This document shows, in pieces, positions 7,552 to 26,113 of a stretch of DNA of 64,000 bases (position 1 is the first letter of the stretch; each line of letters begins with the position of its first letter). Location of the stretch: NCBI RefSeq assembly GCF_001544015.1, contig NZ_AP014924.1, forward strand, positions 3,720,001 to 3,784,000, written 5' to 3'. The position numbers were made by a program, and so were the translations under genes. The notes under the pieces were generated by a model. It ran no database searches. It worked only from the letters and a program-made list of their open reading frames with translations, and was not told where the DNA came from. This DNA is from Limnochorda pilosa. Lineage in GTDB: Bacteria > Bacillota > Limnochordia > Limnochordales > Limnochordaceae.

Positions 7552-8364
7552 ATGCTGGGATTGCTGATTACCATCGCGGGGCTCCTCATTCTCACAGCCA
7601 AGGAGTACATCGCTGGACACACCCGCCTGGCTAGGTACGAGAGGATCTCTCTAGTTCTACTTGTTCTGGGGCTATGTGTCGGAGTCCTTGGCAGTGTACG
7701 CCAGTATATTGAGAATCGCACGCTCGAAGAGCGCGTTGCTCAGCTCTACGCTCGTAGTGTCGAGGAGCTGCGTGATCTGGCTGATCTTGCCTTTGATCTT
7801 GGTACTCTTGCATCGGCGTACTTCGGCATCGTAGAGGAAGAGATGCTAGAAAAGGAGGATCCACGTAACGTTCGACCTGTGATTCTAGCCGACCTCCGAA
7901 GCGGGATCGAGGAACGGCACCGTGTGTTCGGCATCACGTTCGAGCAGGATTCGGAGGAACGCCTTAGGGAGGCCTTCCGTGGACAGCCCCGTGACAGTGA
8001 CTACTTTGAAGGCGTTGACCTGGTATATGGGTCGGGCTACTACCATTACCACGTCAGCATGGAGATCTGGGCCCAATCGCCCTCGACATCGCTGCATTAC
8101 TGGTTTGACGTAGGATGGATGATTGGCTACATAGAGCACCTCATGGAGACTGGAGTATATCAGCTAGACAGGGACAACCTAAACGACCTGGGTCAGGCCC
8201 TGATGCGCCTAGGGGCTGAGATCGGCATTCCTCGCAAGTCGTTTGAGACCTGGCTGGATGAGTTAGGTCAACTGTCGGGACGTGACGTACAGATTCGTAC
8301 GAACAGGCTTATGCATGACATCAGGCAATACAAGGAGACCGTATGGGATCTGAATCCTCGGTAA
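7552..8364 (+). CDS. Two-helix membrane protein with helical cytoplasmic domain, unknown
   Basis: A 270-residue protein. Two hydrophobic helices at about residues 2-20 and 33-50 (LLITIAGLLILTA and ISLVLLVLGLCVGVLG) anchor the N-terminus. A 220-residue soluble part follows, first helical and acidic (EERVAQLYARSVEELRDLAD), then with an aromatic patch (VYGSGYYHYHVSMEIW) and a final helical domain. No catalytic motif or family is recognised. A GAGGAG lies about 15 bases before the ATG, so initiation may be weak. The base composition is visibly less GC-rich than the housekeeping genes. Its position directly upstream of a winged-helix/HEPN-like gene and an R-M type pair makes a defence or stress role conceivable, but nothing in the sequence proves it. 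Confidence 0.6.
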   Translation: MLGLLITIAGLLILTAKEYIAGHTRLARYERISLVLLVLGLCVGVLGSVRQYIENRTLEERVAQLYARSVEELRDLADLAFDLGTLASAYFGIVEEEMLEKEDPRNVRPVILADLRSGIEERHRVFGITFEQDSEERLREAFRGQPRDSDYFEGVDLVYGSGYYHYHVSMEIWAQSPSTSLHYWFDVGWMIGYIEHLMETGVYQLDRDNLNDLGQALMRLGAEIGIPRKSFETWLDELGQLSGRDVQIRTNRLMHDIRQYKETVWDLNPR

Positions 8365-8474: not shown

Positions 8475-9242
8475 GTGGCAGAGCTAACTCCCGACCAGCT
8501 GGAATTACTTCAAGGCCTAGCCGATGCCGTGCGACGGGTGCCGAAAGGGCAGCCGAAGGAGTTTCTTGCATCCTCCGACCAGGAAGGCTCCGAAGTCCTG
8601 GCACTAGCAGGGCACTACCGCCATCACGGGGTCTCGCCATCCGACCTTGAAGAGCTTGCGGATCAAGGGCTCGTGAGAATCACCGAGCGCAGGAGATACG
8701 GGGATCTGCTCTTCTCCGTGACCAATCGGGGGATGCAGGTCGCCGGCCTTGGAAGTCCGGCTGCCCTGGTTGAGAGACGGGTTCGGTTCGTTCAAGATCG
8801 GCTCCCTGAGCCATATCGCCTGGCACAGGACCTGATGGACCAGGCAGCTTCCAGGTTGAGCGATGCCCACGACGAGCATGACTACTCCGAGATCGGCCAC
8901 AAGTGCCGGGAGGCGATGCAGGAGTTTGCCGAGCAGCTCTACCAGCAGGTTGTGCCGGCTTCGCAACAGCGGACGCTGCCCAAGGACAAGACGGTCGATC
9001 GAACCAGGGCGGTGTTGGAGACCTGGAAACCCGAGGCGGGAGACACCACGGTTGCTCTCCTCGATGCGCTCCTCGTCTACTGGGGCGCCGTCAGCGATCT
9101 CGGCCATAAGGTAGAGCACCGATCGCAGAAGGCGGGCCGCCCCCTAACGCTCCAGGATGCCGAGAGGGCGGTGCTGTACACGTACCTGGTCATGGCAGAA
9201 CTGGCAGGCCTGGACCCCTCACTTGATGCTCCAGGATCCTAA
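8475..9242 (+). CDS. Winged-helix plus HEPN/Abi-like helical protein
   Basis: A 255-residue protein starting at GTG 8475 after GGAAGGGGG. Residues about 1-95 look like a winged-helix unit (SDLEELADQGLVRITERRR, then YGDLLFSVTNRGMQVAG). The rest is all-helical. Its C-terminus (DLGHKVEHRSQKAGRPLTLQDAERA.. in outline) resembles the Abi C-terminal/HEPN-like domains found in abortive-infection proteins: a conserved polar loop after a helix, then a helix that packs the core. The stop codon overlaps the stop of the converging methyltransferase gene (9239-9242), so the genes are tightly packed. A toxin or sensor role in phage defence is plausible; no RNase motif R-x4-6-H can be assigned with certainty. 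Confidence 0.5.
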   Translation: MAELTPDQLELLQGLADAVRRVPKGQPKEFLASSDQEGSEVLALAGHYRHHGVSPSDLEELADQGLVRITERRRYGDLLFSVTNRGMQVAGLGSPAALVERRVRFVQDRLPEPYRLAQDLMDQAASRLSDAHDEHDYSEIGHKCREAMQEFAEQLYQQVVPASQQRTLPKDKTVDRTRAVLETWKPEAGDTTVALLDALLVYWGAVSDLGHKVEHRSQKAGRPLTLQDAERAVLYTYLVMAELAGLDPSLDAPGS

Positions 9243-10657
9243 CTGAACATCTTTCCCTGCCCAATTCCGTTCTTCCCTGAGCCCGAATCCGCGCTGGTTA
9301 CTTGCAGCGGGGGTCCGTTGAAGACTACCTGCTTCCCCCGGGTCTCGTACGAAGAAGGCTCGTCCTCAAGGACTCGTGCCAAGAACCCATCTAGCGACTC
9401 CCCACCTTCAGTAACAACCCACAATCGCTTTAGGAGATCAAGCGTATCGGAGTAGCGTCGGATACCGTTCCATCGAGATCTCTGCGGATACAGCGCATCA
9501 AGGATGGCGCTGGCCTCGACGAGTGCACGGAAACCCGAGGGCGGATTGCTGAACATACCATCGAACATCGCCCAGACATCAGGCTTCAATTCCTTCATGC
9601 CATTCTCAGGCACTCTGCCCTTACAGCTCGGCTCAGCTGCATGCAACCTCCCAAGCTGCTTTTCGAGCGTCTCTCGAAGCATATCGACACGCAGGTGCTG
9701 CACCCATGCCTTGACCCGCTCCATCAAGTGCTCAAGCGGCACTTGACGTGGGCGGTTATCGAACCCCACAATCTTGACTAGCCCAGACCCAAGGCTATGT
9801 AGCTCATCACGCTGCTTGGTCCCAAGACGAAAAGCGGACTCCAAGGCGTATTCCTCCGAGATCTCTATGCCCACCCAGGAACGCCCAAGGCTTCTTGCCA
9901 CAGCGGGGGTCGTTCCACTCCCCGCAAAGGGATCCAAGACGACTTCACCCGGCCGGGAACAAGCCCGAATGATCCGCTCCGTGACCGACTCCGGGTAGAT
10001 CGCTATGTGAGAGGTCACACGCCGGTGGCCACCAAAGGCCACTCGGTCCTCGATCCACACATTCCCGGGGTTCTTGCCCCAAAGGTTGTTCCTCTTGTCG
10101 TAGGACCTAGACTGCTCCCTAACAGCATCAACATCGAAGTACGGCGCCAACTTGCCGTTGCCTGGCTTGACCCACCAAAGGATGGTTTCGTGGTTGTTCT
10201 TAAACTTACGGGCAAACGACATGCCCCCGAAATAGTACCAAATGACCCGATCCCAAAGGCGGAAGCCAGCATCCCGGAAAAGCCTGTAGGTAAGCATGTC
10301 GATAGGCACGATCTCCCGGTCCTGGCCAGCGTCTTCGCTGTACCCTGTCTGGAAGAAGAACGACCCGTCGGGCTTCAACACCCGGTAGCATTCGTTCACT
10401 ACACTCTCAAGAAAGGCTATGTATTCATCTAGCAGGCGATCGTCATCGACGGACTTGTAGGCCTTACCGATGTTATACGGCGGACTCGTATGTATCAGGT
10501 CCACCGAGTTGGCTGGAAAGGCCGGCAGGACGTCGAGACAATCACCATGAATCAAGCTGTCGAAATGAGCAACCTCGCCTTGGGCCAAGCGTTCCTTCGC
10601 TTGCGCCACAGTGACCAGAAAGGCTTTGCTGGCTGCCGAAACGATTTGCTCCGCCAT
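9239..10657 (-). CDS. Beta-class site-specific DNA methyltransferase (N4-C or N6-A)
   Basis: A 472-residue protein. The start at 10657 is preceded by a perfect AAGGAGG (plus coordinates 10664-10670). Motif IV is TSPPYN at residues 57-62; motif I, LDPFAGSGTT, follows at about 241-250. This IV-before-I order defines the beta class of amino-methyltransferases (PF01555). TSPPYN is more typical of N4-cytosine than N6-adenine enzymes, but this is not decisive. The last 200 residues are an extension with no recognised motif and may hold the target-recognition domain. The gene lies 24 bases downstream of a PLD-family nuclease on the same strand, so the pair is most simply a type II restriction-modification system in which this enzyme protects host DNA. 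It ends against the converging winged-helix/HEPN-like gene. Confidence 0.85.
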   Translation of the reverse strand: MAEQIVSAASKAFLVTVAQAKERLAQGEVAHFDSLIHGDCLDVLPAFPANSVDLIHTSPPYNIGKAYKSVDDDRLLDEYIAFLESVVNECYRVLKPDGSFFFQTGYSEDAGQDREIVPIDMLTYRLFRDAGFRLWDRVIWYYFGGMSFARKFKNNHETILWWVKPGNGKLAPYFDVDAVREQSRSYDKRNNLWGKNPGNVWIEDRVAFGGHRRVTSHIAIYPESVTERIIRACSRPGEVVLDPFAGSGTTPAVARSLGRSWVGIEISEEYALESAFRLGTKQRDELHSLGSGLVKIVGFDNRPRQVPLEHLMERVKAWVQHLRVDMLRETLEKQLGRLHAAEPSCKGRVPENGMKELKPDVWAMFDGMFSNPPSGFRALVEASAILDALYPQRSRWNGIRRYSDTLDLLKRLWVVTEGGESLDGFLARVLEDEPSSYETRGKQVVFNGPPLQVTSADSGSGKNGIGQGKMFS

Positions 10658-10681
10658 GATGCGCCTCCTTGGCGGAAGGCC

Positions 10682-11689
10682 CTATTCGATCTTGTGCTCA
10701 TCCAGAAAACGGGCGACTAGCGGCAAGGTCCTGCGGAAAGTTGAGCTTGCCCCACCACCTGTGGTCGTATACCCCCCCAGACTCTCCGGCAAGATGCGTC
10801 TCAGGACAGACAGGTCGAAGTCAGGCCCTTTGATGCCTGCGTGAGCATCCAGGAACTCTATCCACTTCTCCTCGACCTCACGACTCACTCGGGGGACATG
10901 ATTCACAGCAGTCTGGACAAGCCCAGGTCGTAATGAAGCGTAAGCCGGATGCAGCAAGAAGAGCACCGAGCCGTAATAGCTTTGTTTTACATGGCCTTGA
11001 AGGTTGCTGTGCCCCCTGTGCCTTGCGATTAATTCTCCCGCACTGCTCTCATTCCTTCTCTCCAGGAACACGATGAAATCCTCAAGGCGGGGCGCCCGTT
11101 CATGATCTATTTCGGGCTTCCTCGGCACAAGAAGGTCATCAGCGAGGTCAATAGCAGCCTGGAGCTCGCCTTGCGCCTCTTCAGGCACGAGTTGTCGATG
11201 CTCTGGGTATTTCTCTATCACGTCCTTTGTTGCGTCAACGAACGAACGGAAATCATCCACCGAAACCTCTTGGAGACGTGGGCGCATGATATCCACTAGG
11301 TGCGCCAGAGCCTCGGCTTCCTCGCCATCCATTTCCGCCATTGCCTCAACGTTTGTAAAGAAGGCCGCCAGGGTCAGGTTGGCGGAGCCCACGTACCCCC
11401 ACTTTCTATCCACCAGGTAGATCTTAGCGTGCAACGCTCTGTGCATCCGAAGCGTTACACGCCCGGCTCCTAGGCAATCTACTAGTTTCACAAGGGCAGC
11501 GGGATCGGAGACACCTGCAACAAAGTCGTTCGGGTTGAGCCGAGTCCAGAATTCGAGCCGACCATTTGCCGCAGGGACTACCCACGCTAGGGACTCCGCA
11601 CTATAGAACGGCGCCGACACCAAGACTTCCTCGCCAGATCGGCATTGTTGGCGGAGGAGTTCCTGCTTGGGGTAGGCAAATCTCACCAT
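10682..11689 (-). CDS. PLD-superfamily nuclease, likely restriction endonuclease
   Basis: A 335-residue protein with the start placed at ATG 11689 (MVRFAYPKQ); an upstream in-frame codon at 11746 adds only a non-conserved tail. One HKD motif is present: H87, K89 and D94 in HAKIYLVD, followed by the usual GSANLT. Enzymes of the NgoFVII/BfiI type carry a single HKD per chain and form the active site as a dimer. The remaining 230 residues are helical with no second HKD and would provide DNA recognition. It precedes the methyltransferase by 24 bases in the same direction, which supports a restriction role. It is divergent from the PIN/GIY-YIG gene, with 144 bases between the two start codons where promoters for both must lie. 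A non-restriction PLD nuclease is the alternative. Confidence 0.75.
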   Translation of the reverse strand: MVRFAYPKQELLRQQCRSGEEVLVSAPFYSAESLAWVVPAANGRLEFWTRLNPNDFVAGVSDPAALVKLVDCLGAGRVTLRMHRALHAKIYLVDRKWGYVGSANLTLAAFFTNVEAMAEMDGEEAEALAHLVDIMRPRLQEVSVDDFRSFVDATKDVIEKYPEHRQLVPEEAQGELQAAIDLADDLLVPRKPEIDHERAPRLEDFIVFLERRNESSAGELIARHRGHSNLQGHVKQSYYGSVLFLLHPAYASLRPGLVQTAVNHVPRVSREVEEKWIEFLDAHAGIKGPDFDLSVLRRILPESLGGYTTTGGGASSTFRRTLPLVARFLDEHKIE

Positions 11690-11833
11690 GACTCCACACC
11701 CTCCTTTCCCTGCCTGGACCCATACCACCAACCAATTGTCGCCCAAGAGGCAGATTCCTCTGCGTCGTGGAAGGGATTGGCATCACTCCTGCTGAACGTA
11801 GAGGGCGCACTCGCTCCTCCGGGGGATGCGGCA

Positions 11834-13447
11834 TTGAAGTACCTCCTATTGGACACCAACGTCTTCGTGGCCTGCACCAGGATGCGCATTGGCCATCACG
11901 ATGCTGGGCTGCTGGGCCGGCTCCGGCAGGCTCTCGAAGCAGGGGCTGCCCGCCTGCTGCTCCCGGAGATTGTGGTAAGGGAGTACTGGCGGGAAGAAGC
12001 ACAGACCTTCCAGGACGCACGGCGTGACAAAAACGACGTACTGAAGGCGATCGGGGACCTCTACTCCCGACGCAAGCCTCCCCAGGCCCTCATCGAGCTG
12101 ATCGAGAACGAGATGACGGCTCTGGAGCAAAACCGCAAAGCCGCCCACGAGGTCATCAGCGAGATCTTCCAGGCGCCTTATACCGTGAAGGTCCCCCTGA
12201 CGCCCGCGATCGTATTTGCTGCCTTCCAGCGGACTGCGGATGGGCGAAGGCCCGCCAACCCAGACGTGAACTACCTGCTTGATGCCGACGCCGTGATCGT
12301 CGAGAGCGTTGCGGCCTATCACAGGGATCACGGAGACCTTGAGCTAGTCTTGTGCACAGAGGACGCTGATTACTTTGAAGGCGACGCCCTGCATCCAGAA
12401 ATCGCCCAGGACCTGGCCCCGGGGACACGCATCTACAACAGCTTGGCGGACGTAGTCAGGCAGGAGCTAGACACCACGGTGTCCCGGGAGCAGGAGGAGG
12501 CTTACCTTAAGGGCTCTCTACGTGTGTCCTATGCCGTCGGCCAGCCTTCCCTGCTCACGGACATGTTCACAGCACTCGCCCGCATGCGCCAGGCTCAGGA
12601 GCAACTCAGCAAGCAAATCGTAGGCGCCCAGGGGATGAGGCTCGATGCGCTCGGCAGCACCGCCCGGTCCATTGGCAAGGCGCTCGAGGGGTATAACAGC
12701 ATGGTGCGCCTCCTTGGACAGCGGCTGGCCGAGTACCATCAGACCGCCCGGATGGTCGGGGCGGGAGTGGTCAGGGCCGCCGAGATCGCTCGCACCGCGA
12801 CAGATCACATGGGTCCCGCCTTACAGGGGATAGTGTCAGCCCAAGACTTTGTGGCACCTTTCCTGAGGACCGCGGCGGAGATTCAGCGGATCACTTCGTC
12901 GGTGGAGAGGCTTAAACCTCCGGAGGAATGGCTCGAGGAGGAAGCTGCGGAACCAGAGCCACCCAGGTACCGCCCGCCCTTTCACCCGCAAGAGGTCGAG
13001 GAGATGGGTTTCGAAGGCTTTGTGAAGGTTCGCCGGTTCCAGCGATTTGACCACATCCCCCCGGGGCCAGGGGCATACGTCGTGCTAAGAGAGTCGGCCT
13101 TTCCACCTGAATTCCTCCCGACAAGCCCCGCTGGACGGCCCAACGGAAAGGACCCCACCCTTCCGGTCGAGCGGCTTGAGAAGCTGTGGGTCGAGGGGAC
13201 GTACTTGCTATACATCGGAGAAAGCAAGAACCTTCCAGGGCGGGTCAAGAACCTCGTCCGCTTCGCTCAGGGGCGGCCGGCGCCTCACTGGAAGGGGAGA
13301 GCGGTCTGGCAGCTCAAGGATCACGCCGACCTGCTGGTAGCGTGGATGCACGATGAAGTCTACCATACAGTGCCGTACCGGGATGTTCTTCAAGCTTTCC
13401 GGGAAGCGTACGGCCAGCTGCCGTTCGGGAACCAGCGCGTGGACTAG
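11834..13447 (+). CDS. PIN-domain and GIY-YIG double-nuclease fusion protein
   Basis: A 537-residue protein. TTG 11834 is chosen as start because it directly precedes the first PIN strand (KYLLLDTNVFVA); the frame is open to 11645. The PIN fold covers residues 1-190: D7, E45 (LLPEIVV), D152 (DADAVIVES) and the CTEDADYF segment near 174-181 fit the acidic active site of a DUF4935-type PIN RNase. A helical linker spans about 240-375. The C-terminus is a GIY-YIG unit: GAY at 413-415, YIG at 460-462, arginine 470, then HWKGRAVWQL and a closing AYGQLPFGN. The expected catalytic glutamate near 516-524 is not certain; D516 or E524 may take its place. No transposase or partner lies between it and the restriction pair. 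Two unrelated nuclease folds in one chain suggest an RNA- or DNA-damaging effector. Confidence 0.75.
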   Translation: MKYLLLDTNVFVACTRMRIGHHDAGLLGRLRQALEAGAARLLLPEIVVREYWREEAQTFQDARRDKNDVLKAIGDLYSRRKPPQALIELIENEMTALEQNRKAAHEVISEIFQAPYTVKVPLTPAIVFAAFQRTADGRRPANPDVNYLLDADAVIVESVAAYHRDHGDLELVLCTEDADYFEGDALHPEIAQDLAPGTRIYNSLADVVRQELDTTVSREQEEAYLKGSLRVSYAVGQPSLLTDMFTALARMRQAQEQLSKQIVGAQGMRLDALGSTARSIGKALEGYNSMVRLLGQRLAEYHQTARMVGAGVVRAAEIARTATDHMGPALQGIVSAQDFVAPFLRTAAEIQRITSSVERLKPPEEWLEEEAAEPEPPRYRPPFHPQEVEEMGFEGFVKVRRFQRFDHIPPGPGAYVVLRESAFPPEFLPTSPAGRPNGKDPTLPVERLEKLWVEGTYLLYIGESKNLPGRVKNLVRFAQGRPAPHWKGRAVWQLKDHADLLVAWMHDEVYHTVPYRDVLQAFREAYGQLPFGNQRVD

Positions 13448-18295: not shown

Positions 18296-18766
18296 TCAGT
18301 CGATGTTTACCACGTACTCCTCGCCTAGGGCCTCGACAGCCTCGGCTAGCACATCCTCCGGCACGGCCGCTCTTGCAGCCAGATCGTCCAGCGTCTCATA
18401 CACGTCGTAGAAGTTCCCATCGCTAGCCTCGATGAAATGCACCAGCTTGCCACCTGAGGTCAGGAAGACGTCGTGAATGGTTGTGGCCTCCTGGCCTTCC
18501 GCCAGCAACGCCCCAACGAAACGAACTTTCCGCTTTGACCCAGTAACGACCCCGCCGGAGATGATCGTGGTCTCAAGGACGTATTCTCTCATCCGGTCCT
18601 TAACCTCCTGCCGCGCGGCCTGCTTCCTCTCCTGCTCGTCTACGTACCTGCGCAGGGCCTCCGTCACGAGGCCTGACAGGCTATCGTCGCCACCCGCCAG
18701 CGCCTTGGCACGTTCCCACAGCTGCCCATCCCCGTCCCGGACGTAAAGGGTTACCTTCTTTGGCAT
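18296..18766 (-). CDS. Ribbon-helix-helix regulator with C-terminal domain
   Basis: A 156-residue protein. ATG 18766 (MPKKVTLYV) is chosen because GAGGTG precedes it and because an earlier start at 18781 would lie almost inside the promoter. Residues 1-45 are a ribbon-helix-helix: beta strand KKVTLYV, then ERAKALAGGDDSLSGLVTEA. The second part (residues about 60-156) is a mixed alpha/beta domain of unknown role (GSKRKVRFVGALLAEG, then GKLVHFIEASDGNFYDVYE). A strong promoter with an 18-bp palindrome over its -10 half lies 21-49 bases upstream, suggesting autorepression by the RHH domain. It heads a two-gene operon with the 65-residue gene. This could be a partition, maintenance or antitoxin-like module of the element. 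Confidence 0.65.
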   Translation of the reverse strand: MPKKVTLYVRDGDGQLWERAKALAGGDDSLSGLVTEALRRYVDEQERKQAARQEVKDRMREYVLETTIISGGVVTGSKRKVRFVGALLAEGQEATTIHDVFLTSGGKLVHFIEASDGNFYDVYETLDDLAARAAVPEDVLAEAVEALGEEYVVNID

Positions 18767-18786
18767 CGTGAACCACCTCAAGTGAC

Positions 18787-18815
18787 AGTATACGGCGCCG
18801 TATACGTAGTGTCAA
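18787..18815 (-). promoter_or_regulatory. Sigma-A promoter with palindromic operator
   Basis: On the minus strand TTGACA (18810-18815) is followed after exactly 17 bases by TATACT (18787-18792). The perfect palindrome GTATACGGCGCCGTATAC (18788-18805) covers the -10 and most of the spacer. Binding of a dimeric repressor there would block RNA polymerase; the RHH protein encoded 21 bases downstream is the obvious candidate. Confidence 0.8.
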
Positions 18816-18930: not shown

Positions 18931-19194
18931 GTATCACCTGTATCACCCCTGTGACACCACGGGTGATACGCCTCAAAGTCCGTGGCAGAGCCACTCTAGA
19001 GCACCTGTATCACCGTATCACCTTTCGTCACTAGCTCTTTCTTTGGGGGGCATATACCTCTTCCCGCGTGGATGTATGTCTCCCGAGAAGTTGGACCCTG
19101 CCGACGAAAAAGGTGATACGGTGATACGGGGCGTGCAAATGCGGTCCTGATGGGCTTTCCCGCGTATCACCCTGGGTGATACGGGGGGTGATAC
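18931..19194. repeat. Iteron-like cluster of ten GTATCACC octamers
   Basis: GTATCACC occurs at 18931, 18940, 19007, 19015 and 19164, and its complement GGTGATAC at 18962, 19112, 19120, 19175 and 19187. Copies come in pairs 8, 9 or 12 bases apart and as inverted pairs, including a perfect 19-mer GTATCACCCTGGGTGATAC at 19164-19182. The cluster fills the gap between the DUF927-like ATPase gene and the RHH operon. It fits an origin or partition site bound by an element-encoded protein. Confidence 0.75.
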
Positions 19195-19228: not shown

Positions 19229-19251
19229 GTCTGGTTACCGGCCCTCAGGTA

Positions 19252-20631
19252 TCACTCGCCGTGCTCATCGCCGAGCAGGTCGGCTTGACGGAAGACGATG
19301 CAGCGCGGGGACCCTAGGCTCTCGCCGTCGCGGCGCCTCAGGCGCACGGTCCGTGACGTCCTGCCGCTTGCGTCTGTGACGATCATCCCGGCTTCGTTCC
19401 ACGCCCTCCTGAGTGTGTCCAGGGACATGCCCCGGCTCTCGAGGAACCTGGCAAGCGCCTCGGGAAAAACGGCGATGCACTCCACACCGTCCACCACGGC
19501 CTTGCCGCCAACGTACTCGCTGGGGATCCGGTAGGTGACCCTGTCGTGGTAGCCCTCGCTGGCTACGGGCTCGAATCCAGCCACCTGCGCCTGGTGGGCT
19601 GCGACGTACTCCCTCACGATGTCGAGCCCCTGGTCCCGGACGTTATCGGCAGCGGGGATGCCCTCGACGATATCGCGCCAGGCCATGAGCGTGCAGGTCC
19701 GGGCGAGGTCCCTGGCGTCCTCGACCGCGCAAGCCTCGAGCATTGCCACGAGCCCGAGCCACCCGACGGCCACCCGCTTGGCGAGGCGAGCTGCCCTGCC
19801 CGCCTGCTCAGCGCCTACCCTCGCCATCGTGGTGAGCACCGCGCACATCGTGTCGTAGCGCTTCACCATCTCGTCCGGGCGCCGGACCACCAGGTCGTAG
19901 ATTACTGGCTTCGTCCGGTCGCCCATGTGCCCGTAATGCTGATGGACGATCTCCCGCAGCCGGTCGTTCTCCCTCGCGGCCTCCAGGGTCTTCTCCGTCC
20001 CGAGCGGCGGCTTGATCGTGAGCACCCGGTCTCTGACCCCCTCGGTCGTTCGAGCGTAGTCCAGAATGGACCTCTCCGCAGCGACGAATGCGATGACGTT
20101 GTACTCGGATGTGATCCTCATTGTTGCGTCCCGGTTCAGTCGCCCCCGGCCCCTGCCGAGGGCCAGGGCGTGGATGAAGGCCGTCAGCTCAGCGGCTGAC
20201 CGCTCATCGATGCGGGCCGTGCTCTTTGTGCCCTGCAGTTCTTCCAGGAACAGCGGGAGGTCATGCAGGAAAGCCATCTGGCTCTCCAGGTAGTTAAGCG
20301 TCCCGTTCCACGACCTGATGAGCCGCCCGACGGTGGGGTCGCCCCAGATCGACGCGACGGCCTCCATCGCCGTACTCTTGCCGATCCCCGCCCGCTCGTG
20401 TGGGTGCTCGACCACCCAGCCATGGATATCAAGCTTGCCCCGCTGCAGTAGAGGCATGATGAACCAGGTCCCCGCAGCGCTCCCGGCCTCCCACCCCAGC
20501 CGGGGCCACTTGTGGAATGCCTCCACCAGCGCATCACGCTGCACCTCGTAGCTCCCCCGGGGCATGAAGGAATCCCTGATAGCCCGCTCTTCGGCCGTCA
20601 GGTTCTCGGACCAAACCACCGTTTCTCCCAT
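19252..20631 (-). CDS. DUF927-like replication ATPase (helicase half)
   Basis: A 459-residue protein. Walker A is AGIGKST at residues 81-87 and a Walker B-like stretch LPLFLEEL is at about 125-132. SWNGTLNYLESQMAFLHDLP between them matches the DUF927 helicase-like family of plasmid, phage and ICE replication proteins. Residues about 390-459 look like a winged-helix end. It begins inside the 3' end of the primase gene (34-base overlap, other frame) with its own GGGGGAG and an ATG immediately after an in-frame TAG, so translation is probably coupled to the primase. In many relatives the N-terminal part of DUF927 belongs to the same chain, whereas here that part ends the primase protein. Predicted role: ATP-driven helicase starting replication of the element at the adjacent iteron-like repeats. 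Confidence 0.75.
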   Translation of the reverse strand: MGETVVWSENLTAEERAIRDSFMPRGSYEVQRDALVEAFHKWPRLGWEAGSAAGTWFIMPLLQRGKLDIHGWVVEHPHERAGIGKSTAMEAVASIWGDPTVGRLIRSWNGTLNYLESQMAFLHDLPLFLEELQGTKSTARIDERSAAELTAFIHALALGRGRGRLNRDATMRITSEYNVIAFVAAERSILDYARTTEGVRDRVLTIKPPLGTEKTLEAARENDRLREIVHQHYGHMGDRTKPVIYDLVVRRPDEMVKRYDTMCAVLTTMARVGAEQAGRAARLAKRVAVGWLGLVAMLEACAVEDARDLARTCTLMAWRDIVEGIPAADNVRDQGLDIVREYVAAHQAQVAGFEPVASEGYHDRVTYRIPSEYVGGKAVVDGVECIAVFPEALARFLESRGMSLDTLRRAWNEAGMIVTDASGRTSRTVRLRRRDGESLGSPRCIVFRQADLLGDEHGE

Positions 20632-22235
20632 CTACTTGTCTCCCCCGCAATCTCATGTGTGGTCATCATGTTGCCCGGGGCCCACCCCATGCGTCCGGCT
20701 ACCCGCTGCCTTGGCAGCTCCATCCGGTCCCTCAGGGCAGCAAGGTACCCCACGACCACCTTGGCGTTGAGGGAGTCCACGGGGAACCCCATGTCCGCCA
20801 GGGCCCGAATCTTCGTGTGGTCGAAGAGCACCGACCCCGGCACGTCTCTCTGGACCCACCGGCCCCGGTCGAGCCAGGCGAGGCGGTAGCTCACCCCGTC
20901 ATCATCCAGCCGCTCGTTCACCTGCACGAGTTGCACCACCGTGGCAATCACGGGGACGTGGCCATCTTCGGTCTCCCGGATCACCGTCTCGTTGGTGACG
21001 ATGTACGAGCCCACCCGGAGGGGCTGGTTCGGCACGGGGGCGCCGGGACAGTGCTGCCCAACCGTGTCGTCCCGGTCACCTGCCCCAACGACGTGCAGGC
21101 TAGCCCGGCGCCTCTGGGCCTCCAGCTCCCGCCGGGCCTTACCCACCTCGGCATCGAGGTCCCGGAGGTTCACCTTGCCCCGGAGGTTCCCGCGGGTCCG
21201 CTGCCATTCGGCGGGGTCCTCCTGCGCCAGCAGCGCCAGCGCCCCCAACGTGTCGGGCTCGAAGGCCGCTCCTGGGTCAGTCTTGGCGCGCTCGGCCAGA
21301 GAGAGCGCGACCTTCCTGGCCCCCTCGACGCCGTCGTCTGCCCCGCTCAGGGCCTTGCCGATGGTCATCTCTCCGTAGGTGTGCTCCCCATGCCTCTCAT
21401 CCCATTTTGGCCGCATCAACCCCGAATGGCGGAACAAACGATCGATGCGCTCGGGATCGTCGTCGGTCCAGTAGGCCAGGATCGAGCAGAGAGCGAGGTC
21501 GGCCTCGGAATGGCTACCCCAGTCCTCCCCCTCCCAGCCACCCTCCCAAAGCGTCCTGAACTTCTCGCCGTTCTTCACCGTGGCCGCTCGCTCGATGAGG
21601 CGGCGGTCGTCCTCGGTGAGGGGCTCATCGGAGTGGGCAGTCACGTCGACGGCCGGGGGGGACTCGGCCCCCAGGTACTCGTCCCGGAGCCACGTCAGGT
21701 CCCGGTCGACGATCTCAGCAGGCGCCAGATCGAGGCGGTGCCCGGTGACGACAAAGAATCGCTTGGTCTCGTACGCCTCAAGCCCCAGGCTGGAGTCCTT
21801 GTTCCTGCCCTCGGGCAGCTTGCCGCGAACGTAAACGCGGAGGCCCTCGCCCGACGGGGTAATCTCCGTGTAGCTGTTGAGGCGTTCAACGATGTCCTGG
21901 GCGAGCGGGGAGAGGATCAGCTCGCCCCCGGGGCTCTGCTCCAGGCAGTGGTCGATATCGATCCCGACGTAAGGGTCGCCATCCGTGACGACGAAGCCGA
22001 TGCCGTCCCACTCGCCGGACTCATACCCCTCCAAAACCCGATCAAAGGTAGTCCAGGTGGACGGGGAATCCGATTTCGCCTTCGACCCGGATAGCTGATA
22101 CGGGACCTTGGTCCACTTGCCACTCTCAATCAAACCGTAACGCCAAAGTACCCATTGCGGCCGCTCCTGCAGCTCCTGGGGGATCCCCTCGGCACGCACC
22201 GGGAGCGGGGTTGGCCTGGTAAGTTCCGCTGCCAT
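20598..22235 (-). CDS. Primase/polymerase-like replication protein
   Basis: A 545-residue protein; ATG 22235 follows GGAGAG. The N-terminus is of the type found in phage NrS-1-like primase-polymerases and related mobile-element primases: RPQWVLWRY, KVPYQLSG, then STWTTFDRVLEGYESG, GIGFVVTDGDPYVGIDIDHC. The IDIDH segment supplies the metal-binding acidic residues. The middle contains a helical module. The last 120 residues (SVLFDHTKIRALADMGFP.. in outline, ending in RVAGRMGW) match the start of the DUF927 domain whose ATPase half is encoded by the next gene. Together the two proteins should prime and unwind the element's DNA. Upstream lie 340 bases with an inverted repeat and a possible opposing RNA. 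Confidence 0.75.
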   Translation of the reverse strand: MAAELTRPTPLPVRAEGIPQELQERPQWVLWRYGLIESGKWTKVPYQLSGSKAKSDSPSTWTTFDRVLEGYESGEWDGIGFVVTDGDPYVGIDIDHCLEQSPGGELILSPLAQDIVERLNSYTEITPSGEGLRVYVRGKLPEGRNKDSSLGLEAYETKRFFVVTGHRLDLAPAEIVDRDLTWLRDEYLGAESPPAVDVTAHSDEPLTEDDRRLIERAATVKNGEKFRTLWEGGWEGEDWGSHSEADLALCSILAYWTDDDPERIDRLFRHSGLMRPKWDERHGEHTYGEMTIGKALSGADDGVEGARKVALSLAERAKTDPGAAFEPDTLGALALLAQEDPAEWQRTRGNLRGKVNLRDLDAEVGKARRELEAQRRRASLHVVGAGDRDDTVGQHCPGAPVPNQPLRVGSYIVTNETVIRETEDGHVPVIATVVQLVQVNERLDDDGVSYRLAWLDRGRWVQRDVPGSVLFDHTKIRALADMGFPVDSLNAKVVVGYLAALRDRMELPRQRVAGRMGWAPGNMMTTHEIAGETSRWEKRWFGPRT

Positions 22236-22880: not shown

Positions 22881-23088
22881 CGAGGGCCTCCTCCATCTCG
22901 CCCCACGCGGGCTCCGCCTGCAACTCGTCCTGGGGCAGCGGCTCACCCGTGTCTGGGTCGAGCCCGTGGGCCCGGCAATAGGCCCGCCAGGGGCTGGACC
23001 CGTCAGTTTTGGTGACGGGTCGCACCCAGGGGCCGGGGCCGAAAAGGGCCGTCATGAACCACCTGAAGGCTTCGTACCCCGTGGTCAC
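22873..23088 (-). CDS. Small protein of the integrative element, unknown
   Basis: A 71-residue protein. GTG 23088 overlaps the stop of the excisionase-like gene by four bases (GTGA) and its own stop overlaps the next gene, so all three are coupled. The sequence starts with an aromatic stretch (YEAFRWFMTALFGPGPW), then HGLDPDTGEPL and an acidic end. Small proteins with W-x-Y-C-x-A-H-G-L segments are common in phage replication regions, but no function can be assigned. Confidence 0.45.
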   Translation of the reverse strand: MTTGYEAFRWFMTALFGPGPWVRPVTKTDGSSPWRAYCRAHGLDPDTGEPLPQDELQAEPAWGEMEEALDG

Positions 23089-23318
23089 TGCGCCTCGCCA
23101 GCCGATTTGAATTCGACTCCAGGAACGATTCCAAAGCGGGCCAGCTGGCCGTCGACGAGACGGTCGATCCAGGCCTTGGGGAATCGGTAGGTCGGCCTCT
23201 TGCCGCCTGGCCGGATGTTGACACATGCGATCTCGCCACGGCGGATCATTTGGCTGAGCACGGCCTTGCTTATGCTGAGACGTTCACAGACGTAGTTTGC
23301 GTTGACCAATTCCTGCAT
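23085..23318 (-). CDS. Excisionase/MerR-like helix-turn-helix protein
   Basis: A 77-residue protein. ATG 23318 (MQELVNANYV) sits eight bases after GAGGGG; a GTG three codons earlier is possible. Residues 3-40 form a winged HTH of the excisionase (HTH_17) type: LVNANYVCERLSISKAVLSQ, then RRGEIACVNI. RPTYRFPKAWIDRLV completes the wing and last helix. Such proteins bind att sites to direct excision or repress the element's early promoter. It heads a coupled three-gene unit before the primase; an inverted repeat overlapping a TATAGT box lies just upstream. Confidence 0.7.
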   Translation of the reverse strand: MQELVNANYVCERLSISKAVLSQMIRRGEIACVNIRPGGKRPTYRFPKAWIDRLVDGQLARFGIVPGVEFKSAGEAQ

Positions 23319-23341
23319 GATTAACACCCCTCTCTGCCTTT

Positions 23342-24805: not shown

Positions 24806-25840
24806 TCACCTCCCGCCCTGCCCCAGCAGCTGCGCGAGCGGCCGCACCTGGTCGTACTGGTGCTGCAGCTCGTCGCTCAGGAGCCTGGTGTAGATCTCCG
24901 TCGTGGTGATGGACCGGTGCCCCAGGATGAGCTGGAGCGTGCGGATGTCCCTGGAGGCGAGGAGGTAGCGGTGCGCGAAGGTGTGCCTCAGCAGGTGGGG
25001 TCCCGCCTTGCGCCCGTCGACGCTCACCCCGGCCTCGGCGAACGCAGGCCGCACAACCTGGTGGTAGACCCCGGAGCTGCTGAGCGCCTGCCCACGGGTC
25101 AGCGAGGGGAAGAGCCACGGCGAGTCAGACCAGCCTGCCTGTTTCAACCATGCGGCCCTCCGCCGCAGGTAATAGCTGATCTTCGCCGCGTAGGCCCCGT
25201 CGTAGGGGATGTCCCTGGAGCGCCTAGTCTTGGTGATCGACGCGGGCACATGGATGATCCGGTCGCGGGTGTCCAGGTAGCCCACCTGGAGCTGCCTCGC
25301 CTCGCCAGAGCGCATGCCCGTGGCCAGCAGTGTCACGATGAGCATGTGGTTGCGCAGGCCCTCGAAGGTCCGCTTGTCGAACGCCCCGAGGAGCGCCAGG
25401 CACTCCTCGTCCGAGAGGGTCTGGGGGATCACATCTTCCTCCCTGAGCCGCCGGACGTACCGGGCCGGGTTCTTCTCGACGATCTCGAACTCCTCCATTA
25501 CGTTGAAGAGTCGCTTGAGCGCCCGGATATGCCCGTTCACGGAGGCCACCTCAAGGTCGCTGGCTTCGATGAGTTCGAGCTTGTAGGCCTCCAGCAGCTC
25601 GCGGTCGACCTCGCCGATGCGCTCGACCCCCTGCTCCTTGAGCCAGGTGACGAGCTGCTTCAAGCGGGACATGTACCACCTGCGGGTGCCTTCGGCCCGG
25701 CGGTTGGCGCGCAGGCCGTAATGGTCGAAGAAGCGCAGGGCCGCGTCGAGCGACTCTTGGGCATCTGCTCTCCGCGGGAGCGGGGTACCCCCCTGGCGGG
25801 AAACGGTTGCGCGGGCAACTCTTGCCCCGGCAGGCTGCAT
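24806..25840 (-). CDS. Tyrosine recombinase/integrase
   Basis: A 344-residue protein. ATG 25840 follows GGGAGG at nine bases; ATG 25867 in frame is weaker. The N-terminal SAM-like core-binding domain spans about residues 28-120 (TRRWYMSRLKQLVTWLKEQG). The catalytic domain contains the complete set: R177 (TGMRSGEA), K about 204, H282 and R285 (HLLRHTF), H308 (LGHRS) and nucleophile Y317 (EIYTR). It should be active. It ends at the GNAT gene (overlap or near-overlap). The gene points away from a truncated tRNA-Lys located 230 bases upstream of its start, the classic arrangement of an integrase and its attachment site. Confidence 0.9.
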   Translation of the reverse strand: MQPAGARVARATVSRQGGTPLPRRADAQESLDAALRFFDHYGLRANRRAEGTRRWYMSRLKQLVTWLKEQGVERIGEVDRELLEAYKLELIEASDLEVASVNGHIRALKRLFNVMEEFEIVEKNPARYVRRLREEDVIPQTLSDEECLALLGAFDKRTFEGLRNHMLIVTLLATGMRSGEARQLQVGYLDTRDRIIHVPASITKTRRSRDIPYDGAYAAKISYYLRRRAAWLKQAGWSDSPWLFPSLTRGQALSSSGVYHQVVRPAFAEAGVSVDGRKAGPHLLRHTFAHRYLLASRDIRTLQLILGHRSITTTEIYTRLLSDELQHQYDQVRPLAQLLGQGGR

Positions 25841-26070
25841 ATGGCCAAACCTCCCATGGTGTCCCATTCCTGGGAAAATGGCGGGGAATGGATACGAGGT
25901 TCGTTTTTTTTGCCTGCCACTGCCGAGGACCGATGAGGAGGGACATCGTGGAGGGTGATGTCCCCGTTGTTCCTGCGGGTTATTCAGTGGCCGTATGCTC
26001 GTGGCGGGGTCTTGGAGTGCCCTTCGTTAGGCCTTTCCTTTACCCCTCAGGGGTACTCTCCGTCACTGCG
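25841..26070. other. Probable attachment-site arm region of the integrative element
   Basis: A 230-base gene-free stretch between the integrase start and the cut tRNA-Lys. It contains GGGACATC (25940-25947) with GATGTCCC (25957-25964) as an inverted repeat, and TACCCCTGAGGGGTA (minus strand, near 26041-26055) as a small hairpin. No tRNA 3' half (T-loop GTTCGA-like) occurs here. Confidence 0.5.
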
Positions 26071-26113
26071 AAGGATTAAGAGTCCCCTGCTCTGCCGATT
26101 GAGCTAACGGCCC
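26071..26113 (-). tRNA. 5' half of tRNA-Lys(CTT), truncated at the anticodon arm
   Basis: On the minus strand GGGCCGT (acceptor), TA, GCTC-AATCGGCA-GAGC (D arm), A, GGGGA-CTCTTAA-TCCTT (anticodon arm, anticodon CTT) read as a normal tRNA-Lys. After that, variable loop, T arm and acceptor 3' strand are absent and unrelated sequence follows. Its promoter is intact. The break coincides with the integrase end of the element, so the anticodon arm was probably the integration crossover. The 3' half was not found elsewhere in the window by eye. Confidence 0.75.

Follow-up and report, generated by a model that had tools for sequence, protein, structure and literature searches.

We found ten exact copies of the octamer GTATCACC at positions 18931-19194 of the window, the 64,000-nucleotide stretch of Limnochorda pilosa DNA analysed here. 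With a probability of roughly 0.9, this segment serves as replication origin for a 35.6-kb island at tRNA-Lys(CTT), where the C-terminal domain of the island's own DUF927 helicase would bind it. The sequence-only reading had placed the origin of an autonomous element here. The origin part of that proposal is supported by the position of the array, its dyad, its core, the homology of the adjacent helicase to SaPI Rep and Cch, and the recurrence of such arrays with different iterons at other DUF927 loci; the element, however, is an integrated 35.6-kb island and not a free replicon as it stands. The origin of PICIs is located 3' of rep and has an A+T-rich region between two sets of iterons, and the pri-rep-ori module was tested for function on a plasmid (PMC6092414). 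The C-terminal domain of SaPI Rep binds the iterons downstream of the rep gene, and SaPIbov1 Rep has a relative in Cch, which is a DUF927 protein (PMC7581432). As far as its sequence goes, the array has the features of a SaPI/PICI origin, and we consider it most likely that the island's DUF927-helicase origin is built on the SaPI/PICI plan, which is itself already published.

Ten octamers in mirror order around an A+T-richer core

The octamers stand at 18931+, 18940+, 18962-, 19007+, 19015+, 19112-, 19120-, 19164+, 19175- and 19187-, that is, five per strand in 264 bp, just as the sequence-only reading had counted them. No other exact copy of GTATCACC occurs in the 64-kb window, and one 7/8 copy was found at 19249. 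Dinucleotide-preserving shuffles yielded a mean of 0.84 copies per window and never more than 4. The 3.82-Mb genome contains 37 copies in total, and the 27 outside the array are single and dispersed, with no second cluster found in the genome; the octamers are thus not spread evenly through the genome, the outcome that had been named beforehand as speaking against the proposal. Separately, the octamers may resemble the type I iterons of P4, which have the sequence GGTGAACA.

The sites fall into a left set (18931-19022) and a right set (19112-19194), whose order, >><>> followed by <<><<, is its own mirror image and forms an exact dyad. Five mirror pairs were reached with p = 0.012 when positions and orientations were both randomised and with p = 0.25 when the orientations alone were shuffled, so that the mirror order in the window's locus is modest evidence by itself. 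The inner tandem pairs, 19007/19015 and 19112/19120, each advance in a step of 8 bp and form the perfect 19-bp inverted pair (19007-19025 and 19109-19127) that had been seen before; this pair belongs to a 22-bp inverted repeat with 95% identity. In addition, a perfect 19-nt palindrome, GTATCACCC-T-GGGTGATAC, lies at 19164-19182.

Between the inner pairs lies a putative melting region of 89 bp (19023-19111), with a G+C fraction of 0.52 against 0.67-0.68 (67.5% for the window), and its ends bear the inverted motifs TTTCGTC and GACGAAA. The 83-bp segment at 19026-19108 is within the weakest 2.4% of the 83-bp stretches in the window, and the weakest 40 bp of the region overlap the left inner iteron pair. 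Five sites on either side thus flank an A+T-richer core, as the two iteron sets do in PICI and SaPI origins. The array lies in an intergenic gap of 482 bp, bordered by the stop codon of the helicase gene at 19252 and by the next gene at 18769. Only 57 bp separate it from that stop codon, which places it immediately 3' of the putative initiator gene, again as in PICIs and SaPIs.

The helicase, its split domain and the island

The helicase ORF (19252-20631, minus strand) carries the Walker A motif GIGKST and matches Pfam DUF927 (4e-14), NCBIfam SCCmet_Cch1 (3.3e-17), the SCCmec Cch structure PDB 5dgk (3.2e-12) and the pathogenicity-island Rep structure PDB 8tch (1.5e-7), as expected of a self-loading helicase of the Rep/Cch type. 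A profile of the helicase family matched 8tch nearly end to end (1.6e-55) and 5dgk also over nearly its whole length, and a profile of the C-terminal part alone still found 5dgk (4.5e-7) and, weakly, 8tch (0.002). The homology to Cch and Rep therefore covers both the helicase core and the C-terminal domain, and we propose, by analogy, that the C-terminal ~150 aa may be the iteron-binding domain. The ORF scores 62 of 700 bits, below the SCCmet_Cch1 equivalog cut-off, and is therefore a relative of Cch rather than Cch itself. AlphaFold2 run on the helicase ORF alone, without an alignment, gave a pLDDT of 39, too poor to use. Searches of the viral contigs with this ORF or with a relative's ORF as query found no relatives.

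The gene upstream (20598-22235, minus strand) encodes an NrS-1-like primase-polymerase and, in addition, the N-terminal part of the DUF927 domain. It overlaps the helicase ORF by 34 nt (20598-20631), so that one DUF927 domain is spread over two ORFs and split on its Walker A side. The primase/ATPase pair described earlier is correctly placed beside the array, with the refinement that its two members share a single split domain. This arrangement, in which the N-terminal region and half of DUF927 sit on a separate ORF fused to a primase-polymerase, differs from that of Cch and Rep; the inclusion of the first part of DUF927 in the primase ORF likewise sets the island apart from SaPIs and PICIs. 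Since the DUF927 gene of a distant relative (locus L035, genome G165) is divided in a comparable way, the split gene is probably genuine, and a sequencing error is an unlikely cause. Both ORFs have clean codon statistics. In L035, we also observed eight GTACACA copies in the stretch that separates the gene's two halves (2351-2516) and a weaker array of seven TGTAACA copies after the DUF927 gene (620-892).

Farther upstream on the same strand are an HTH_17/excisionase-like gene (23085-23327) and a tyrosine integrase gene (24806-25867); the integrase, excisionase-like, primase-polymerase and helicase genes are all on the minus strand. The right attachment repeat (26073-26113), 206 bp beyond the integrase gene, corresponds to 41 nt in the 5' half of tRNA-Lys(CTT). 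No convincing pair of attachment repeats was found within the window alone, the partner being outside it: an identical 41-bp copy lies inside the intact tRNA-Lys gene at genome positions 3710493-3710533 and marks the left end, 9.5 kb outside the window. A genome of the same genus (G001) has a complete tRNA-Lys gene beside the same right flank. The 41-bp repeats together with this comparison indicate an island of ~35.6 kb that extends 9.5 kb past the left edge of the window. The duplicated part of the tRNA gene is its 5' half; the half usually duplicated is the 3' one.

The island has an integrase, an excisionase-like gene and a putative pri-rep-ori module, as a PICI does, and it also contains transposase fragments and genes for methyltransferase, PLD, PIN and Schlafen-type proteins. 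The cargo at window positions 9239-13447 and at 6760-9185 of L094 looks defence-like, with two N6/N4 methyltransferases, one of which carries an Mrr-like domain, and PLD-like, PIN and Schlafen/AlbA_2 proteins. Among the ORFs tested against Pfam and PHROGs, we recognised no terS or other terminase, capsid-morphogenesis or phage-interference gene and no Stl/AlpA-type control. The island may be composite, and it is not classed as a PICI. Its likeness to SaPIs and PICIs lies in an origin directly 3' of the initiator helicase gene with two sets of short iterons flanking an A+T-rich region, in the primase gene alongside, and in the integrase and excisionase-like genes; it differs from them in an iteron sequence of its own, in its setting as a 35.6-kb tRNA-Lys island, and in the lack of a recognised terminase, capsid or PICI regulator gene among the genes tested. 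A Cch locus of Staphylococcus epidermidis, unlike the island, has no comparable iteron array, which counts against the origin reading.

Arrays at other DUF927 loci

To compare the array with related elements, as the sequence-only reading had suggested, we collected 27 DUF927 loci, the window's own included, from Bacillota genomes and plasmid records and scored 8-mer clusters in 700 bp around the helicase stop, using 717 ORFs of the same loci as controls. A cluster scoring at least 18 was present directly 3' of the helicase gene, the same place as in the window, at 13 of the 27 loci (the window's locus among these 13) and at none of the 717 control genes; at a threshold of 15, the counts were 14/27 and 3/717. 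The 8-mer scan detected no cluster at eight of the loci, a further point against; some of the contigs stop short, and certain DUF927 genes may be non-initiators. Streptomyces plasmids pFP4 and NZ_CP108092 also carry such an array.

The octamer varies by locus (GTTCCCC, GTTCCCA, GTAACCAG, GTACCACT, TGTAACCCC, GTCTCCAC, TGTCCCGG and others), and most of these, put in one orientation, fit the theme GTNNCC[A/C], which was read by eye. No near-identical array was found in 73 genomes of the class or in plasmids. The geometry recurs: clusters in the relatives hold their 8-mers in two orientations, with an inner pair or triple pointing one way, a core, an inner set pointing the opposite way, and outer sites. 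The G+C content of the core was below that of its own locus in 14/14 clusters examined, the difference being small in three with cores of 24-36 bp. At L036 and L037, long inverted repeats (such as CATTCCGACA...TGTCGGAATG in L036) stand at the borders of the melting cores, and the mirror plan at these two loci reaches inside the iteron sets. Similarity of the iterons tracks similarity of the helicases (Mantel p = 0.001 for the core domain and 0.007 for the C-terminal domain), a correlation that is no stronger for the C-terminal domain than for the core; it shows co-inheritance and does not by itself single out the C-terminal domain as the reader.

A comparable layout was also seen beyond this family. 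Among the viral contigs searched, only L137 has at least four GTATCACC copies together; there (8120-8300), pairs of the octamer flank an A+T-rich core directly after genes for a RepB-like primase and a VapE-type P-loop helicase. The VapE-type protein belongs to another helicase family, and the layout is the same; the search pattern itself included a GTATCACC pair, so the independent evidence from this contig is position and core alone, not the shared octamer. For the archaeal plasmid pRN1, of the primase-helicase type, PMC4234260 reports that the minimal replicon requires sequence downstream of the primase-helicase gene, a likeness in position to the window array.

The survey of DUF927 loci inclines us to the view that an origin with a melting core flanked by two mirror-symmetric iteron sets, directly 3' of the helicase gene, is general to replicons with DUF927 self-loading helicases rather than peculiar to PICIs. 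Such origins would be found in tRNA islands, phage-like plasmids and satellites across Bacillota and Actinomycetota, with iterons that drift within GTNNCC[A/C] and a dyad geometry that stays fixed. This generalisation depends on a single scan method, applied to loci of two phyla.

Competing readings and a proposed mechanism

The sequence-only reading had also offered a partition centre next to an RHH operon, and the array could accordingly be a parS-like site or an operator array bound by its RHH-like neighbour, in the manner of the omega heptads of pSM19035. GTATCACC does contain ATCAC, which is the core of the omega heptad, and the RHH-like gene (18296-18769, minus strand), the first gene after the origin, does adjoin the array. 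Its position was thus correctly described, but the RHH assignment is weak: at E<=0.001 the small protein hit none of the families of Pfam, PHROG or NCBIfam, and phmmer gave CopG chains alone, at E = 0.05. The gene has its own minus-strand promoter (TTGACA-17-TATACT, 18787-18815, 11/12 consensus bases), which overlaps a perfect 18-bp palindrome, GTATACGGCGCCGTATAC (18788-18805), that occurs once in the window and is unrelated to the octamer. This palindrome is probably the gene's own operator, which suggests autoregulation. Moreover, the gene was not found in any other of 73 genomes of the class, arrays elsewhere follow DUF927 genes with different neighbours (an integrase gene in NZ_CP108092, hypothetical genes in pFP4), the iterons of the relatives lack ATCAC, and the proteins tested included no recognised ParA-like one, the partner expected at an omega/parS site. 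Given this separate operator and the lack of conservation of the gene, we rejected the partition reading, which is very improbable. We give even less credence to a classical iteron plasmid system, in which a separate RepA-type initiator, or host DnaA, would bind the array as an origin or as a locus of copy-number control. Iterons beside replication genes are typical of such plasmids, and the array does adjoin replication genes, but the annotated genes include no recognised RepA-type initiator, the sites are short (8 bp) and face both ways in a dyad, unlike long direct repeats, and the helicase belongs in its own right to the self-loading initiator class.

A different possibility, compatible with an origin and concerning its present activity alone, is that the array was once functional in a replicon that is now broken. 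The split of the DUF927 domain at its Walker A side would fit such decay, as would the transposase fragments and many non-mobile genes that lie between the attachment repeats of a composite 35.6-kb island. On the other hand, all ten iterons are exact, both DUF927 ORFs keep the codon statistics of clean genes, the integrase and excisionase-like genes are intact, and the distant relative has a comparable split; we therefore regard a dead origin as unlikely, though it deserves more weight than the two readings above.

For the origin of the island, we propose a mechanism modelled on the SaPI and Cch literature. The island would be excised by its own integrase and would replicate only after this excision. 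On the ten GTATCACC iterons, contacted by its C-terminal domain, the DUF927 helicase would form two hexameric rings of opposite orientation, with a single ring on each half-cluster. The helicase would melt the A+T-richer core that the inner tandem pairs enclose and unwind the DNA bidirectionally, and priming would be done by the primase-polymerase of the neighbouring ORF.

For a mobile island from a Bacillota lineage that has been little studied, the array is a concrete origin candidate. It suggests a rule for the origins of DUF927 replicons, namely a two-orientation octamer array directly 3' of the helicase gene. With about a dozen initiator/iteron pairs now available, the code by which this helicase family reads DNA becomes testable, as does the proposed double-ring loading geometry.
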